Virus record (IMG/VR): IMGVR_UViG_3300044732_001049
Span: 1-37,408 of that record
Source of the DNA: a virus
Reading direction: 5' to 3' (one strand)
Length of the DNA: 37,408 nucleotides
A model generated the notes under the pieces. It searched no databases. It worked only from the letters and a program-made list of their open reading frames with translations, and had not been told where the DNA came from. Numbering within the stretch: position 1 is the first letter of the stretch; every line of letters begins with the position of its first letter. The position numbers and the translations under genes are program-made. This document shows positions 4,758 to 10,957 of the stretch, piece by piece.

Positions 4758-6143
4758 TTAAAATATTAATAGTTTTTTCTTTGAATACTTCGTGTACACC
4801 GCATACCTAATCGAATCTAAAGAGTGATTCCAGTCATCAATCGGTTTGTTGATAGGTTTACCTCCAACAGTCAACCATTGGTAATTGTCAATCTCTTTTT
4901 TAATGTTTTTCGACCTTCGTGTATAATACACCTCGTATTCTCTTAATTTACTAATACCAGCATTAACGGAGTCATTACCTTTAACCGCTTTCACGACTTT
5001 AAGCCCCTCTCTCCTTAATTCTTCAATTGACTTAGGGTCTGCCGAATCACAATAAATCTCATTCAATTTATCGGGATAGAGTTTAATCTTTTTAGCCAAA
5101 TCAGAATTTGTTAATCCCTTTTCGTAAATAACTTCGTCAAGATATAACTTATTTCCTAATTTAGCAATTCGCACCAATGCAGTAGGGTCATTAGAGAACC
5201 CAAAGTCAAGTCCACTAAAGATAACATCAGCATCTTTTGGAAAGAACTCACAAGGTTGCCAATCATGATAAATAAGTGACTCATAACTTGGTTTAGGGTT
5301 TTGCTGATAAAGCGACTCAAAGGTAAATGGTTGGTCTTTCTTAATCTTTAAGAGTTTCTCTAAGGAGTGCTTCTCAGGCCATAATGCCTCACCAACCTTA
5401 CGTTTATCGTAACTATTCTCCGCAGCTTCACGAATTGCAGGAAAATCAATAATTGTCCAATCATCATCTCGTTCAAGTAACCTCCCTGCTAAATCATCAT
5501 CATACCACCTCGTTTGAATAAGCACTTGTTTAGAATCATTATGAAGTCGTGTCTCAAATACATCGGTGTACCAATTCCACAATTGTTCTTTAATGATATT
5601 ACTTTGTGCCTCTTGTCTGTCTTTTAAGGGGTCATCTATGATTCCAATGTCAACCGCAGTACCAGTCAATGAGCCTCCACGACCAACTGCTTTTAAGTAA
5701 CCACCATGACCAACAGTTTGGAAAAACTCAGCAGTACGAATAGCTTCACCTTTACGTTCACTAACACGAGAATCAGGGAATAAAGCCTTAAACTCATCAC
5801 TAACTATTCTACGTTGTATCTCACCACTAAATTGTTCAGCTAAGGTGGCATTATAACTCGCTAAAGCTAACTTTAACTTAGGATTCTTGCCTAAGAGGTA
5901 TGCAGGAAAACTTCTTGTCGATAATTCAGACTTCCCGTGTTGCGGAGGCACAAATATCATCAACTTCTTGATTTTACCCTCATAAACTTTATCTAAGTGT
6001 TCCGCAATCACCTTGTGAAACCACTTCATGTCATAATCGGGTTTGATGTACTTGACAAAGTCTTTAAATGACCTCCTCGAAAGTTCCCTCATCAATATCT
6101 CGTTCTCTAATTCTTGAAAGTCTTTGTCTGATTTCTTCATCAC
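4758..6143 (-). CDS. terL: Terminase large subunit
   Basis: This 461-residue protein is the DNA-packaging motor. The ATPase domain has Walker A PPQHGKSE (66-73), Walker B IGIIDDP (167-172, acidic pair D170/D171) and a QTRW coupling motif (210-213). The C-terminal RNase H-like nuclease has acidic residues in GLDFG (D313), CDSADP (D366, D369) and DDWNHSLDSIRYA (around D443). The QHGK form of Walker A and the spacing fit the Terminase_6-type large subunits. The start at 6143 overlaps the small terminase by 80 bases. An internal ATG at 6092 would shorten the overlap without losing a domain, so the start is uncertain. Confidence 0.95.
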   Translation of the reverse strand: MMKKSDKDFQELENEILMRELSRRSFKDFVKYIKPDYDMKWFHKVIAEHLDKVYEGKIKKLMIFVPPQHGKSELSTRSFPAYLLGKNPKLKLALASYNATLAEQFSGEIQRRIVSDEFKALFPDSRVSERKGEAIRTAEFFQTVGHGGYLKAVGRGGSLTGTAVDIGIIDDPLKDRQEAQSNIIKEQLWNWYTDVFETRLHNDSKQVLIQTRWYDDDLAGRLLERDDDWTIIDFPAIREAAENSYDKRKVGEALWPEKHSLEKLLKIKKDQPFTFESLYQQNPKPSYESLIYHDWQPCEFFPKDADVIFSGLDFGFSNDPTALVRIAKLGNKLYLDEVIYEKGLTNSDLAKKIKLYPDKLNEIYCDSADPKSIEELRREGLKVVKAVKGNDSVNAGISKLREYEVYYTRRSKNIKKEIDNYQWLTVGGKPINKPIDDWNHSLDSIRYAVYTKYSKKKLLIF

Positions 6144-6537
6144 TTAATAATCTTGGGTCTAAGGTTTCTTCTCTAATTGTTACTTCGGTAGTTACTGCCT
6201 GATTGGCTTTGCCATGTTGAAACTCCAACAAGAATTGGGTATTCTTCATCTCACCATTTTTAATGTCACCTAAGATGGCATTGGCTATTACGGCAATAAA
6301 ACCAGGAGTCTGAATATCCATCGCAATCCTTTTAATCTCAGCAACACTCATTGAGTTAATTGAAGCTGCAACTGTGACAACATCACTCTTAGTTAACTTA
6401 ACATTAAACGCATCACCTACCTCATCAATCACCTTTTTAATCATTCCCTTGGGTCTCCCATTGGGATTACCACTTACACCCTTCTCAAACTTCTTTAAGT
6501 TCTTTAAGGTGTTAGGGTGTACTTTACGTTTTTCCAT
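6064..6537 (-). CDS. Terminase small subunit-like protein
   Basis: The 157-residue protein starts with a basic region containing FEKGVSGNPNGRPKG (17-31). This glycine and proline motif is typical of DUF5681-type proteins encoded directly before large terminases. The middle is helical and the end is charged. It is the first gene of the minus-strand late arm and overlaps the large terminase. By position and motif it is the DNA-recognition subunit that brings the large subunit to the packaging site. A separate pac or cos site is not recognisable. Confidence 0.75.
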   Translation of the reverse strand: MEKRKVHPNTLKNLKKFEKGVSGNPNGRPKGMIKKVIDEVGDAFNVKLTKSDVVTVAASINSMSVAEIKRIAMDIQTPGFIAVIANAILGDIKNGEMKNTQFLLEFQHGKANQAVTTEVTIREETLDPRLLSDEEIRQRLSRIRERDIDEGTFEEVI

Positions 6538-6696
6538 AATTGTAGTTGTTTAATGGTTTGGAAAAAATTCTAAATTTTTTTAATGTGGTTTTTAAAATCA
6601 AATCGTTTTTCAAATTGGGCCATCTTATTTTTCAGCTATGGTGACACTATGTATAATACTAAGTATAATATAATAATATATCTATATGTTTTCTTA

Positions 6697-6713
6697 TTTA
6701 GAATTAATCTAAA
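6697..6713. promoter_or_regulatory. Operator-like inverted repeat, site 1
   Basis: TTTAGAATTAATCTAAA: two perfect 6-bp half-sites with a 5-bp spacer, so the half-site centres are 11 bp (one helical turn) apart. It has the same TTA 5' flank as sites 2, 5 and 6. It lies on the TerS side of the control region. Confidence 0.7.
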
Positions 6714-6773
6714 CAACCTTAACTTATTGAACCTCAACCTTTTACCCAAAGTGTTCCGCCCGAAACACCCTTA

Positions 6774-6790
6774 TTTAGATTAGGTCTAAA
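6774..6790. promoter_or_regulatory. Operator-like inverted repeat, site 2
   Basis: TTTAGATTAGGTCTAAA: perfect half-sites with a 5-bp spacer of different sequence from site 1, so the arms rather than the spacer are conserved. It lies just downstream of the minus-strand -7-like box at 6806-6813, where a bound protein would block initiation or early elongation towards the terminase genes. Confidence 0.7.
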
Positions 6791-6805
6791 TAGATGTTTA
6801 CTCCG

Positions 6806-6813
6806 CAAACTTA
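6806..6813 (-). promoter_or_regulatory. Candidate -7 box for the late head genes
   Basis: On the minus strand the bases read TAAGTTTG, which fits TAnnTTTG. No clear TTG -33 element is found at the expected distance, so this may be weak or activator-dependent. It is the best match seen upstream of the terminase genes and has operator-like site 2 directly after it. Confidence 0.35.
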
Positions 6814-6963
6814 GTCAAACTTTGTAAATAACCATATCTTTTGTTGTTTTTGATTGTTGGTTTTCGATAGATGTACACAAGAATTAGTCAAAAAAGTTTG
6901 CGATTTTATTTATTCCTTCCCCACACCCAAAACACCCCCACCCCTTTTGCTCCACGACTTTTT

Positions 6964-7043
6964 GGATACAAAACGTATCCATGAATACAAAACGTAGCCA
7001 AAATAGCATCCAAGTGGGTACAATTTGAATAAGAAACGTAGTC
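6964..7043 (+). repeat. Three iteron-like 17-bp repeats
   Basis: GGATACAAAACGTATCC (6964-6980) is an inverted repeat with 6-bp arms and a 5-bp spacer. GAATACAAAACGTAGCC (6983-6999) and GAATAAGAAACGTAGTC (7027-7043) are degenerate copies in the same orientation. The first two are spaced 19 bp start to start. The core AAAACGTA and the direct orientation suggest binding sites for a second protein, either origin iterons or operators distinct from the TTTAGA family. Confidence 0.6.
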
Positions 7044-7152
7044 AAATGGCAAAACATTATGTTAAATAGATGGTAGGCTGGGGGTAGCCAAAAGGGTATT
7101 TTATCTGTTTCCTTGTTTTAAACAGGGTTTTATACCTTAATTGAATAGCTTA

Positions 7153-7169
7153 ATTAGATTGATTCTAAA
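7153..7169. promoter_or_regulatory. Operator-like inverted repeat, site 3
   Basis: ATTAGATTGATTCTAAA: one arm is perfect and the other has A for T at its outer base. The spacing is again 5 bp, and the right flank TAG is like that of site 2. Confidence 0.6.
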
Positions 7170-7231
7170 TAGCTTCATTATTGATATCCAATAAGAACAA
7201 AGAAAGAAAGACACAAAGGTAGCACTAATGC

Positions 7232-7249
7232 AATACTTTGATTTTAAGC
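7232..7249 (+). repeat. 18-bp direct repeat, left copy
   Basis: AATACTTTGATTTTAAGC occurs here and again at 10288-10305, the other non-coding stretch flanking the 7910-10060 cassette. Both copies have the same orientation. AAATAGCTT(C/T)ATTA also lies upstream of both copies, at different distances. Confidence 0.8.
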
Positions 7250-7257
7250 GAGGATAA

Positions 7258-7338
7258 TAGGTTCAAATAGGGAAACATACTACCTACCATATGAACGTGT
7301 CTTATATCGAAGATATGGTGGCAAAAAAGCGGAACCTA
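7258..7338. other. Nested stem-loop of unknown function
   Basis: TAGGTTC (7258-7264) is complementary to GAACCTA (7332-7338). Inside it, ACCATAT (7286-7292) is complementary to ATATGGT (7313-7319). Outside it, purine tract AAAGAAAGAA (starting near 7196) is complementary to TTCTTTCTTT (about 7341-7350). The arms are nested, as in one folded RNA or an extruded DNA structure. It is not a tRNA and no frame spans it. Confidence 0.45.
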
Positions 7339-7513
7339 CGTTCTTTCTTTTTCTTTTCTTTTAAGTATATGGTATTAATCACCTTTCTTTTAATGTGGTA
7401 TTACCTTGAATTGTCAAATAAGATAAATAAACGTTTACATGAACAAAGGTGAATAAGAAAGAAAGTAACCAAAGAAAGAATTACCAAAGGATATATTTAA
7501 TTCTTATTAACTC

Positions 7514-7546
7514 TATTAATATACCATTCTTAAGAATGTATTAATA
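7514..7546. repeat. 33-bp imperfect palindrome
   Basis: A perfect 14-bp palindrome, CATTCTTAAGAATG (7525-7538), is flanked by TATTAATA on both sides (7514-7521 and 7539-7546), itself a palindrome. The left side has three extra bases. The setting is very AT-rich, without T-run termination signals, so a protein-binding site or origin element is more likely than a terminator. Confidence 0.6.
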
Positions 7547-7731
7547 ACTACGTTATATTATAATAGTATAATAAGGGTATAATCATAGCTACGCTTCTTA
7601 TTCAAGAAAAAAATAACGTTTTGATTTTTATAAAAAAAACATTTTCGAAATTATTTTTTAAAAAAGTTATAAAACCCTATTAATCAGGTATTTAAACGCT
7701 AAAAAATAAATTATTTATTAATCTAATGAAA

Positions 7732-7748
7732 TTTAGAATGAATCTAAA
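7732..7748. promoter_or_regulatory. Operator-like inverted repeat, site 4
   Basis: TTTAGAATGAATCTAAA: perfect arms with a 5-bp spacer identical to that of site 5 (ATGAA). It lies 54 bp upstream of the -7-like box at 7802-7809, on the early-gene side. Confidence 0.7.
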
Positions 7749-7801
7749 TAAGCCCTATAAAATGGGTTTAAACGTTATTAAGCCCTATTTTACATGTATT
7801 T

Positions 7802-7809
7802 TACCTTTG
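7802..7809 (+). promoter_or_regulatory. Candidate -7 box for the early genes
   Basis: TACCTTTG matches TAnnTTTG and lies about 100 bp before the first early start at 7910. A TTG at the -33 distance is not evident. Operator-like site 5 begins 8 bp downstream, over the expected transcription start, which is what repression at this promoter would look like. Confidence 0.45.
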
Positions 7810-7817
7810 TTTCCTTA

Positions 7818-7834
7818 TTTAGAATGAATATAAA
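7818..7834. promoter_or_regulatory. Operator-like inverted repeat, site 5
   Basis: TTTAGAATGAATATAAA: left arm perfect, right arm one mismatch. It sits directly after the early -7-like box, the mirror of the arrangement at site 2 on the other arm. Confidence 0.6.
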
Positions 7835-7909
7835 TTACGTTTAATGTATTGCATTATTGTTTACGTTTATTATGTTTGTTTATTCATTCACTTAAACAAA
7901 ACAAAAAAA

Positions 7910-8101
7910 ATGGAAAATTTAACTTGTAACCCCTCAAATCAAATTGGCGAAAATGGTAAAATAGTTATTACTGTATATCCTGACGGAATTCAAGACCAAA
8001 ATGAATATCAATTAACTAGCAAAACATTTTATGAAGCTATACAATTAATTCAAAATTCATTTTTTGGAATTCATGATAAAATAATTATTTCAGTTATCTA
8101 A
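7910..8101 (+). CDS. Hypothetical protein, first early gene, 63 aa
   Basis: The frame could open at 7844, but its first 22 residues are an unlikely run of Tyr, Val and Ile. The ATG at 7910 is preceded by the A-rich leader AACAAAACAAAAAAA typical of genes here, so I start there. The 63-residue product (MENLTCNPSNQ...) is predicted soluble, with a beta-rich middle (KIVITVYPDG) and ends in a hydrophobic strand. I do not recognise a family. It is the first gene after the control region and is followed by a cassette whose genes share a TTTTTAACCCTT-like leader. Confidence 0.55.
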   Translation: MENLTCNPSNQIGENGKIVITVYPDGIQDQNEYQLTSKTFYEAIQLIQNSFFGIHDKIIISVI

Positions 8102-8126
8102 TTTTTAACCCTTAAAAATCCACATT

Positions 8127-8228
8127 ATGAAAAACACAAAACAAACCGAAATTTTGCAAGCCCTTGCAATAGGCTTATTTATCTACCTTTTATTTTTTCA
8201 CATAGCACCATTTTTAAAAAATCTTTAA
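8127..8228 (+). CDS. Tiny membrane protein, 33 aa
   Basis: A 34-codon frame starts at 8127 in the leader context CCACATT-ATG. It encodes a short polar start (MKNTKQTEILQ) followed by a transmembrane-like segment (ALAIGLFIYLLFFHIAPFL). It is preceded by TTTTTAACCCTT, the leader element shared by the neighbouring genes, which supports its reality. The function is unknown; small early membrane proteins of phages often act on the host envelope or exclude other phages, but no evidence decides this. Confidence 0.5.
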   Translation: MKNTKQTEILQALAIGLFIYLLFFHIAPFLKNL

Positions 8229-8255
8229 TTTTTAACCCTTTAAATAATTCACACA

Positions 8256-8876
8256 ATGGAAAATCAGTATGACAGTGCAGGCAAATTTTTAGATTATTAC
8301 AACCAATTTCAAAAAAGAGACTTTATAGAAAAGTCAAAAATTAGAACAGAATTACAAGAATTTTATAATTGCGAACTTTTAGTAAAATATACAGAAAATA
8401 AAAATGGATTTTATTTTGAGCATTTTTTATTAAAACTAAATTATAAAGGAAAAACCTTTAACGTAATTTTTCACCCTAAAAACGGTTTTGGGTTTTGGCT
8501 TGAATATAATTTGCCTTTTATCAATTATGATGACAGAAGCCAATATTTAAAAAATAACCCTGAGCCAAACAATGTTTTTAAATTGACAAAAAACAAAATT
8601 GTTAATTTACTCGAATATCAAATTAATAAATTTGAGTATTTACAAAAATTAAGCGAAACAAAATGCGAAACTATAAAGCAAAAAGAGGACGAAATTAATA
8701 GGCTATTTCCTGACAAAAATTATAGTTTTTCAAAAAACAGGTTTAAAGAAATTCAAGTAGAAAAAAACGGTTTAACCTATATTGCAAATTTGCATGACTC
8801 AGGCTATATAAGCGAAAAAATATCAATTAGACATTCAAGTGATACATTAAACCAATTTTATAATTTAACCAAATAA
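8256..8876 (+). CDS. Hypothetical protein, 206 aa
   Basis: This is the longest gene of the first early cassette. The product is rich in Lys, Asn, Phe and Tyr, reflecting the AT-rich DNA. A beta-rich segment (FEHFLLKLNYKGKTFNVIFH, about 52-71) is followed by a helical, charged region (about 105-150, KLTKNKIVNLLEYQINKFEY) that may form a short coiled coil. No signal peptide, membrane span or catalytic motif is seen, and I do not recognise a family. The start is supported by the preceding leader element at 8229-8240 and the spacing to the neighbour. Confidence 0.6.
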   Translation: MENQYDSAGKFLDYYNQFQKRDFIEKSKIRTELQEFYNCELLVKYTENKNGFYFEHFLLKLNYKGKTFNVIFHPKNGFGFWLEYNLPFINYDDRSQYLKNNPEPNNVFKLTKNKIVNLLEYQINKFEYLQKLSETKCETIKQKEDEINRLFPDKNYSFSKNRFKEIQVEKNGLTYIANLHDSGYISEKISIRHSSDTLNQFYNLTK

Positions 8877-8922
8877 ATTCTTAATCTTAACTAATTTTTT
8901 AACCTACAAAACACAAAACAAA

Positions 8923-9459
8923 ATGAAAGCATTAAACTTAATTGCATCAAAAGACTCTTTGCGTCCTCAGTTAAATTATATCCAATTAGAGGACGGATTT
9001 TTTAACGTTACTGATTGTAACGTATTACTCAAAATTCCTCAATTGGAAATAATGAATAGCGAAATTTTAGACGAATTACCAAAAGAAGCCTATTTTTTGG
9101 CTAATGATTGGAAAAATAGCAAAATTGATAAAGCCCTTTATTTTAAATTAAACGGGAATTTAATTGAATGCAAGGACAAAAAATTTAATACTATTGGATT
9201 TTTGCCATTTTTAGACGGAAACGAATTTTATACAAAAGTGGGTAAATTTCCTGATTTTAATAACGTAATACCAAAAGACGAATACAAAGAGGAATTAGGC
9301 ACGCTATCAATTAATCCTGAACTTTTGTACAATCTTTATTGTGCCAATGGGAAGGACGTTTTACAATTTTCTTTTTTTGGTAAAAATAAAGCCATTAAAA
9401 TAAAATTTAAAGAAAGCGAAGGAATTGGCTTAATTATGCCCGTAATGTTTGAAAAATAA
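8923..9459 (+). CDS. Small sliding-clamp-like protein, 178 aa
   Basis: The protein has short stretches that look like the bacterial DNA polymerase III beta clamp. KFPDFNNVIP (108-117) resembles the FPDY..V.P motif. NPELLYNLYCANGKDVLQFSFF and the end GIGLIMPV (167-174) resemble the last clamp domain, which ends in a MPM-type motif. The N-terminus (SLRPQLNYIQLEDGFFNVTD) resembles the RPxL...ATD region. At 178 residues it is about half the length of a normal clamp, so it would have to assemble as a higher oligomer or act by binding clamp partners. The similarity is short and needs a structure-based test. It belongs to the early AT-rich cassette. Confidence 0.5.
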   Translation: MKALNLIASKDSLRPQLNYIQLEDGFFNVTDCNVLLKIPQLEIMNSEILDELPKEAYFLANDWKNSKIDKALYFKLNGNLIECKDKKFNTIGFLPFLDGNEFYTKVGKFPDFNNVIPKDEYKEELGTLSINPELLYNLYCANGKDVLQFSFFGKNKAIKIKFKESEGIGLIMPVMFEK

Positions 9460-9482
9460 TTTTAACCTAAAATTTTATAAAA

Positions 9483-9836
9483 ATGGAAAATTTACAAAAA
9501 TACTTTATTCAATCTTCGCATGATATTTTCGAGGATAGTTACGAAAATGGCGAAGGAAAAAATATTAATTTTTATAAAAATGAAGCCCTAATTTTAGCAG
9601 TTTCGCCAATTCAGGCACTAGAAAGGTATGCAAGCAGGATTTTAGGTTATGAATTGGACGCTGAAGATATTGACCATGAGAATACAGGTATTTTTTACGC
9701 TAATTTTTTAGTTGATAAAGATTGCTATCCTGCATCTGTCGAAGATGTCGAAAAATGGAAAAAAAATGAAATTATGCTTTATTCTGATGTTATAAATTTT
9801 GAAATTTTTGAATTAACCAAAATAATAACACTATGA
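9483..9836 (+). CDS. Hypothetical protein, 117 aa
   Basis: The 117-residue product is acidic (DIFEDSYENGEG, ELDAEDIDHENTG) and probably soluble, with a helix over EALILAVSPIQALERYASRIL (about 35-55). No known family is recognised. Its stop overlaps the next start as ATGA at 9833-9836, so translation of the two is probably coupled. The start follows the cassette's TTTTAACCT leader element (9460-9468). Confidence 0.55.
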   Translation: MENLQKYFIQSSHDIFEDSYENGEGKNINFYKNEALILAVSPIQALERYASRILGYELDAEDIDHENTGIFYANFLVDKDCYPASVEDVEKWKKNEIMLYSDVINFEIFELTKIITL

Positions 9837-10060
9837 AGCGTTTCCGAATTAATGAAGCCGAACAAATTATAATACTTGCAAGGTACAAAAGTGAAATAAT
9901 TGAAAAACAAAGGTATTTTGGCTATAAAAGTCTGCAGGATATAAAAAGGCATTTTTTAGAAAATTTACCTTTTGAATTTAAAAATAAAGGTAGGCGGATT
10001 GAATTAACTATTTTTAACGCTACCAAAAACGAATACAGGTATATTAATTGTTTTTCTTGA
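9833..10060 (+). CDS. Hypothetical basic protein, 75 aa
   Basis: The 75-residue protein is strongly basic (MKRFRINEAEQ, KNKGRRIELT) with an N-terminal helical half and a C-terminal strand-rich part. The charge would suit nucleic-acid binding, but no motif is diagnostic. It is the last gene of the cassette: tandem hairpins, the first a good terminator, begin 12 bases after its stop. It overlaps its upstream neighbour by four bases. Confidence 0.55.
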   Translation: MKRFRINEAEQIIILARYKSEIIEKQRYFGYKSLQDIKRHFLENLPFEFKNKGRRIELTIFNATKNEYRYINCFS

Positions 10061-10071
10061 ATTTTAAAATT

Positions 10072-10093
10072 AGGGCTTCTTAGCCCTTTTTTT
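10072..10093 (+). terminator. Rho-independent terminator of the first early cassette
   Basis: AGGGCT (10072-10077), a TCTT loop and AGCCCT (10082-10087) are followed by seven T. It closes the transcript of the genes from 7910 to 10060. Confidence 0.85.
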
Positions 10094-10404
10094 ATATAGT
10101 AAATTTTAATTTAGCCCTTTTGGGGCTTTATTTATTTTAGGGCTTTTTAGCCCTTTATTTATTTAAGCCCTATTTAATGTATTAAACCTGTATAAACAAT
10201 TGAATACAGGGCAAAAGAAAGGGCAAAAATTAGGGTTTTATATGGCCTTTATTTATGGCCTTAAATAGCTTTATTACTAATTACCTTAATACTTTGATTT
10301 TAAGCCATTATTTTAGGCTTAATGATACAATCATATTGCCATACCTACAAAAGTGCTTTAAACGCAAAATATAGTACCTAAAAAACAATTTAAATACAAA
10401 GATT
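10094..10404. other. Non-coding spacer with stacked hairpins
   Basis: No gene is seen. Hairpins follow the terminator: AGCCC/GGGCT (10113-10127), AGGGCT/AGCCCT (10139-10154) and CCTGTAT/ATACAGG (10187-10210). Each of the first two is followed by a T-rich stretch. TTTAAGCCCTATTTAATG at about 10163-10180 resembles 7778-7795, and AATACTTTGATTTTAAGC (10288-10305) repeats 7232-7249. This spacer therefore shares blocks with the region at the other end of the 7910-10060 cassette. Confidence 0.65.
10288..10305 (+). repeat. 18-bp direct repeat, right copy
   Basis: AATACTTTGATTTTAAGC, identical to 7232-7249 and in the same orientation, about 3.06 kb away. Confidence 0.8.
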
Positions 10405-10671
10405 ATGCAAGAAAAACAAAGTAACCCGAAAAAGTACACTAATTGGATGAACCCAAACCAAGCCCCCATTTTGGTTGATAAATCCAAGATTCCTCTCAAG
10501 TTCTACCTTGGAGGTGTTCCACGGAAAAAGCTGATAGTCCCCCAAAATTTTTGGGTCAATAGTCCCCTAAGTTTTTTCGGTAAAATTATTTTATTGCTTG
10601 TCAGTTTATTTTTGGGGCTAATATTTTTTACAATATTTTTTGCAGTATTATTTAGAACAATTCTAAACTAA
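10405..10671 (+). CDS. Small membrane protein, 88 aa
   Basis: The 88-residue protein has a polar, lysine- and proline-rich N-terminal part (to about residue 55) and a strongly hydrophobic C-terminal segment (KIILLLVSLFLGLIFFTIFF, about 60-79) that would span the inner membrane once. No signal peptide is present, so the N-terminus is probably cytoplasmic. Role unknown. The last codons contain operator-like site 6 (10651-10667), so its 3' end doubles as the control region of the next gene. Confidence 0.55.
   Translation: MQEKQSNPKKYTNWMNPNQAPILVDKSKIPLKFYLGGVPRKKLIVPQNFWVNSPLSFFGKIILLLVSLFLGLIFFTIFFAVLFRTILN
10651..10667. promoter_or_regulatory. Operator-like inverted repeat, site 6
   Basis: TTTAGAACAATTCTAAA: perfect arms, 5-bp spacer. 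It is the only copy seen outside the main control region. It lies 33 bp upstream of the promoter of the ribbon-helix-helix-like gene at 10757, an arrangement that fits autoregulation. Confidence 0.65.
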
Positions 10672-10700: not shown

Positions 10701-10733
10701 TTGCAATTATTAAAAAATAATAGTTTACATTTG
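10701..10733 (+). promoter_or_regulatory. Promoter of the regulator gene
   Basis: TTG (10701-10703), a 22-bp spacer and TACATTTG (10726-10733) fit the Bacteroidota -33/-7 pattern with a spacer slightly longer than usual. The core GTTTACATTTGT is identical to that of the promoter at 13063-13092. The start codon follows 23 bases later. Confidence 0.7.
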
Positions 10734-10756: not shown

Positions 10757-10957
10757 ATGGCACATTTAAAGACAGAAATCAATCCGAAAAAAGCTGGAAG
10801 ACCAAGGTTAGACCCTACGGTTGTAGTTTCGGTAAGAATCCCAAAAACATTGAAAGAAAAAGTTAGTGCAAGATTTGGTAAAAATTGGATGAAACTTTTT
10901 AAAATGTTTGTTGAAGTTTATATGAAGGATGAATTTGAATTAAATTCTAAAAAATAG
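10757..10957 (+). CDS. Ribbon-helix-helix-like DNA-binding regulator, 66 aa
   Basis: The 66-residue protein begins with a basic arm containing the AT-hook-like KKAGRPRLDP (11-20). A predicted strand (VVVSVRIP, 22-29) and two helices (KTLKEKVSARFG and NWMKLFKMFVEVYMKDE) follow. Short basic arm, strand, helix, helix is the plan of Arc/MetJ-type ribbon-helix-helix repressors, which bind DNA as dimers through the strand. It has its own promoter and lies 90 bp after operator-like site 6. It is the best candidate in the window for the protein that reads the TTTAGA-N5-TCTAAA sites, but the match is not proven. Confidence 0.55.
   Translation: MAHLKTEINPKKAGRPRLDPTVVVSVRIPKTLKEKVSARFGKNWMKLFKMFVEVYMKDEFELNSKK

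Follow-up and report, generated by a model that had tools for sequence, protein, structure and literature searches.

A recurring inverted repeat at the control points of a phage genome raises the question of which regulator reads it, and whether that regulator is encoded by the phage or borrowed from the host. The window analysed here is the whole virus record (G000, 37,408 nucleotides), in which such repeats lie between a leftward arm with terminase genes and a rightward replication arm, and again near a small gene. The original prediction took them for the sites of a single regulator, with the protein encoded at 10757-10957 as the candidate, that would control both arms and itself.

The six repeats and the promoters that carry them

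A scan of the window recovered all six predicted repeats. TTTAGA-N5-TCTAAA was exact at 6697, 6774, 7732 and 10651, and differed by one base at 7153 (arm ATTAGA) and 7818 (arm TATAAA). A shuffled-sequence scan had been named as a check that could refute the idea, and it placed the count far above chance, with four exact copies against 0.01 expected and none of 100 shuffled sequences attaining four. Chance occurrence in AT-rich DNA was thus ruled out by the shuffles, together with reversed patterns and a control that gave no matches in 149 genomes. The predicted 5-bp spacing was the only one enriched, with seven sites at no more than one mismatch compared with 0–2 for each of the other spacings from 0 to 12. 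The outer TTA/TAA bases also proved real, as they belong to a 25-bp palindrome, CTTATTTAGA-WTSAW-TCTAAATAAG. The spacer had been described as variable in sequence; its length of 5 held, but its bases are constrained to W T S A W across the phage family. Further matches in the window fell within coding sequence at 2996 (one mismatch, the seventh site) and 3462 (weak).

Megablast of the first 25 kb of the window against isolated phages gave no match. A search with the small terminase gathered 39 relatives, with identities down to 58% except for one distant match. Several boxes were present in nearly all relatives long enough to cover the region, and in a close contig (L005) all six sites occurred at equivalent places with bases changed in four. 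The small terminase had one distant match among 395 Bacteroidota genomes, a search that identified no host; the promoters and relatives, rather than a direct host assignment, point to a host in the Bacteroidota. The features of the locus are as follows.

6064-6537, minus strand: small terminase-like gene (DUF5681; Pfam PF18932, 6.1e-9), adjoining the large terminase gene
6693-6717, no strand: S1, Fur-type box (predicted operator), exact 12/12 arms, two mismatches to the R. anatipestifer Fur box
6770-6794, no strand: S2, Fur-type box (predicted operator), exact arms, directly downstream of the late -7 box (about +7 to +31)
6806-6813, minus strand: -7 element TAAGTTTG of the late promoter PL, invariant as TAnGTTTG in 30/30 relatives
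7149-7173, no strand: S3, Fur-type box (predicted operator), one mismatch, in the middle of the non-coding region, identical in L005
7728-7752, no strand: S4, Fur-type box (predicted operator), exact arms, 86 bp upstream of S5
7814-7838, no strand: S5, Fur-type box (predicted operator), one mismatch, conserved
7849-7878, plus strand: early promoter PE, TTG at 7849-7851, N19, TATGTTTG at 7871-7878, with similar elements in relatives, predicted from the Bacteroidota promoter consensus
10647-10671, no strand: S6, Fur-type box (predicted operator), exact arms, two mismatches to the Fur box
10726-10733, plus strand: -7 element TACATTTG of the small-gene promoter, conserved in most relatives
10757-10957, plus strand: putative ribbon-helix-helix protein of 66 aa (KKAGRP...PTVVVSVRIP), from its sequence pattern

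The late promoter PL reads leftward, and the small terminase-like gene is the first gene of the late arm under it. S1 is 77 bp beyond S2 and falls within the leader of that late transcript. In all 30 relatives in which the late promoter could be located, TAnGTTTG was followed by a box 10–11 nt behind it and by a second box 76–78 bp further on, while the rest of the promoter region diverged strongly between clades. Two other conserved features were observed around this promoter. The leader of the small terminase gene (6600-6695) contains AT-rich dyads of the TATAC/GTATA type that occur in most relatives. A GTTTAC/GTAAAC element is found at the late (6796), early (7859) and small-gene (10723) promoters and also at 7433; its position behind the late -7 box is fixed in nearly all relatives, and it is a candidate site for a second regulator, possibly the ribbon-helix-helix-like protein.

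Outward-facing -7-like boxes had been proposed at 6806 and 7802. Both are present, and the one at 6806 (minus strand) is the invariant late element, but that at 7802 (TACCTTTG) was restricted to the near clade. The early promoter that is conserved is TTG-N19-TATGTTTG at 7849-7878. This predicted promoter would drive the rightward replication arm. S5 lies 10 nt upstream of its -33 element, and pairs of the S4/S5 type, 73–86 bp apart, precede the early promoter in several clades. S3 has no obvious promoter beside it and is present in certain clades only, another clade having two to three boxes about 35 bp apart nearby. The 1.3-kb non-coding region also contains repeated GAATACAAAACGTA-like units (6964-7050), possibly an origin.

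Match to the Fur box of Bacteroidota

The Fur box of Riemerella anatipestifer, supported by electrophoretic mobility shift assays (EMSA), is 5'-ATTTAGAATTATTCTAAAT-3' (PMC5609570, PMC10986502). When this published 19-mer was searched with up to three mismatches, exactly the six sites were found in the 37-kb window, where 0.09 would be expected. The phage sites scored higher than the EMSA-tested Riemerella sites, under a scoring model that was itself built from phage sites. The phage boxes share with the Flavobacteriia Fur box and regulon the common core ATTTAGAATnATTCTAAAT, the palindrome and the position near promoters (PMC5609570, PMC10986502). Unlike that regulon, the phage has five to six near-perfect copies in early and late promoters, with C/G at the centre and the outer ends.

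The 25-bp pattern was then compared with 84,980 prokaryote genomes. Among the matches listed, most were from Bacteroidota, and their neighbours included hemA (20 loci), an AraC-type gene divergent from hemA (17), cytochromes, imelysin-like genes, fur, sufA/B/C, an IscS-type gene, feoA, feoB and TonB receptors; several of these gene names were read from the sequences, and two fur genes were confirmed with Pfam. When the phage consensus was run on an independently drawn set of 149 Flavobacteriaceae genomes, matches were found in 82 of them, and the reversed control had none. Thirty loci were examined, of which about 14 were hemA and three feoB, the others including sufT, hemH, TonB receptors of the iron type and an iron-type ABC gene; representatives of hemA, feoB, sufT, hemH and the receptors were confirmed with NCBIfam. 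The exact 12-base core showed no clear excess over the control in 20 host genomes and is therefore not diagnostic there when taken alone. Exact 12/12 sites numbered one to four per host genome, with the reversed control equal or commoner in several, so that the usual form of the box in hosts is not the perfect palindrome.

The match to the published Fur box and the placement of the pattern at iron genes in Flavobacteriaceae together identify the sites as Fur-type boxes. Their likeness to the Fur box, their conservation across the phage family and their placement at conserved promoters were all directly observed. On this basis the six sites are probably Fur boxes, that is, operators predicted for a Bacteroidota Fur at the early and late promoters and upstream of the small regulator-like gene.

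The binder and a proposed mechanism

No convincing Fur gene was found in the phage family by a PF01475 Pfam search, a Fur HMM or hhalign against conserved family proteins, and the idea of a hidden homologue was dropped after these searches; one hmmsearch/hhalign match (E 0.0035) was to a single ORF of G030, not of the window. With no Fur gene found in the family, the simplest candidate for the binder is the Fur protein of the host. It is likely, judging from these comparisons, that host Fur binds the boxes and represses the late promoter, whose layout resembles that of certain host iron promoters with a box just behind the -7 element.

A Fur paralogue of the host (PerR-, Zur- or Irr-like), by which the phage would sense peroxide, zinc or haem, is an unlikely but not negligible alternative. 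Boxes of the Fur family commonly share a 7-1-7 layout. There is a subtle difference between the boxes of the phages and those at host iron genes: the former prefer C/G at the central and outer positions, the latter A/T at the centre and T/A at the ends. The binder could accordingly be a paralogue or a phage-tuned variant. However, the host genes found serve iron uptake, haem and Fe-S functions, and the EMSA-tested box is that of Fur itself.

We consider it slightly less probable still that the boxes are mainly decoys, which would titrate host Fur to derepress host iron uptake rather than control the phage's own promoters. In favour of this, each replicating genome offers several near-perfect boxes, and neither S3 nor the extra clusters in some clades have a recognisable promoter. 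Against it, the distances that separate S2 from the late -7 box and from S1 were fixed in 30/30 relatives, which points to promoter control.

The favourite at first was an Arc-like operator, bound by the phage's own 66-aa protein, which would repress both arms and itself. The operator of P22 Arc is TAGA-N5-TCTA, so that the two have the TAGA...TCTA arms and the 5-bp spacing in common. The small gene was found at 16 relative loci and in 7/7 whole family records compared; it was present in every relative having the locus, and the predicted DNA-facing strand of its product is nearly invariant among homologues. The ribbon-helix-helix assignment is suggested by a sequence pattern; the protein had no Pfam, PHROG or PDB match, and its monomer model was weak (pLDDT 72, pTM 0.37) with no such fold visible.

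The boxes, unlike those of the P22 case, do not follow this gene in their distribution, and the Arc-like operator was dropped because the box was found in phages and hosts in which the gene was not detected. The gene occurred in one of 115 box-bearing viral contigs, many of which are fragments, the exception (L144) being a family member, and it was likewise not found with the boxes at host iron promoters. Nor does self-control fit well, as the box upstream of the gene was present in about half of the relatives and missing in 7/15 of those with the gene. S6 itself lies inside the end of an ORF (10405-10671) upstream of the small gene, and in relatives (L017, L020, L021, L024, L026 and L043 were compared) the box was C-terminal in the window's clade and near the N-terminal end, about 250 bp upstream of the gene, elsewhere; it was thus retained though moved within the ORF. 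The 66-aa protein is not supported as the likely binder, and we regard this reading as improbable. Because the box distribution does not follow the small gene and the box matches that of Fur, the idea of the regulator needs changing: a single regulator of both arms is supported by the same box at the late and early promoters and, in about half of the relatives checked, ahead of the small gene as well, but its identification with the 10757-10957 protein is not supported.

A role in replication or packaging is the least probable reading, for although the boxes flank the 1.3-kb non-coding region beside the small terminase and other phages have single boxes close to terminase or head genes, the same sequence stands at host iron promoters, the promoter geometry is fixed, and one copy lies in ORF 10405-10671, distant from the non-coding region.

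Returning to host Fur as the binder, we infer the following scheme of repression, release and tuning from Fur-type boxes at conserved promoters. Host Fur with Fe(II) would occupy S2, at about +7 to +31 of PL, and S1, 77 bp further, and would repress the terminase and structural genes. The position of S2, as in some host iron promoters, implies that Fur-Fe(II) should block late transcription, and the fixed spacing of S1 and S2 suggests cooperation. S4 and S5 beside the early promoter may tune PE, or alternatively activate it. Release could come about by two routes, either when Fur loses its iron or when replicated phage DNA, with five to six strong boxes per genome, outnumbers free Fur. Such titration would couple late expression to the number of phage genome copies, and host iron uptake would be relieved of repression at the same time.

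Fur-type boxes in other phages

The exact pattern was found in 115 viral contigs, many of them related and thus not independent, and the reversed pattern in 18 stretches. BLAST with the box returned 108 records, mostly from Bacteroidota phages, compared with 11 for the reversed query, which included no Bacteroidota phage. In several other phage groups the box lies upstream of genes for head-maturation protease, portal-like, terminase and other structural-region proteins. At seven loci (L057, L058, L071, L079, L092, L095 and L121), a structural-region gene is preceded by one perfect box, placed about 11 nt ahead of TACATTTG; the box replaces the -33 element in these groups, an activator-like layout.

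Two Polaribacter phages of the INPHARED collection, Freya and Danklef (Forsetiviridae), have the box with 24/24 matched bases, and it precedes portal and tail genes there. In both, one gene product is annotated as a 'ferric uptake regulator family protein'; the window's family encodes none. Their box stands in place of the -33 element, while S2 in the window is downstream of the -7 element. The Freya/Danklef-type proteins, and another encoded by the box-bearing contig G035, retain the winged helix of Fur, lack the metal-binding domain and share a small extra domain (loci L341:44806-45234, L342:4082-4510 and L308, the last at G035:C1:822-1244). This extra domain, GKVFVNxEGEMxETxDPxxIGxAxLDALE, resembles a separate protein of about 84 aa in contigs G034, G036 and G038. 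A search of the viral contigs found no further relatives of the Freya Fur-like protein, INPHARED gave only those of Freya and Danklef, and no Fur gene was found in 48 further box-bearing viral records.

These observations lead to a tentative generalization, which we hold to be possible rather than probable, that several unrelated Bacteroidota phage groups use the host Fur box to set the timing of their late genes. Most would borrow the host repressor and be released by replicative titration, and some would have acquired a Fur DNA-binding domain, blind to metal, which acts on the same sites independently of iron. The repression of stx1 on lambdoid phages by host Fur is a precedent for a phage-borne gene under this regulator; however, stx1 is a cargo gene, and the boxes described here are at early and late promoters of the phage itself. 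The regulation of Bacteroidota phages is, to our knowledge, little mapped. Neither iron nor a ferric regulator is mentioned in the main text of the flavophage paper (PMC8776804), and no description of Fur boxes at the early or late promoters of phages was found in the literature searched, which was limited in coverage.

Together, these comparisons of sequence suggest that the host's iron regulator helps to time phage gene expression, both in this phage family and in several others unrelated to it. If so, the lytic programme would be wired to host iron status, with an early/late switch that uses a known DNA-binding protein, and the Fur-like proteins annotated in flavophages would gain a candidate function. 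In aquatic and gut Bacteroidota, there would then be a link between phage replication and the availability of iron.
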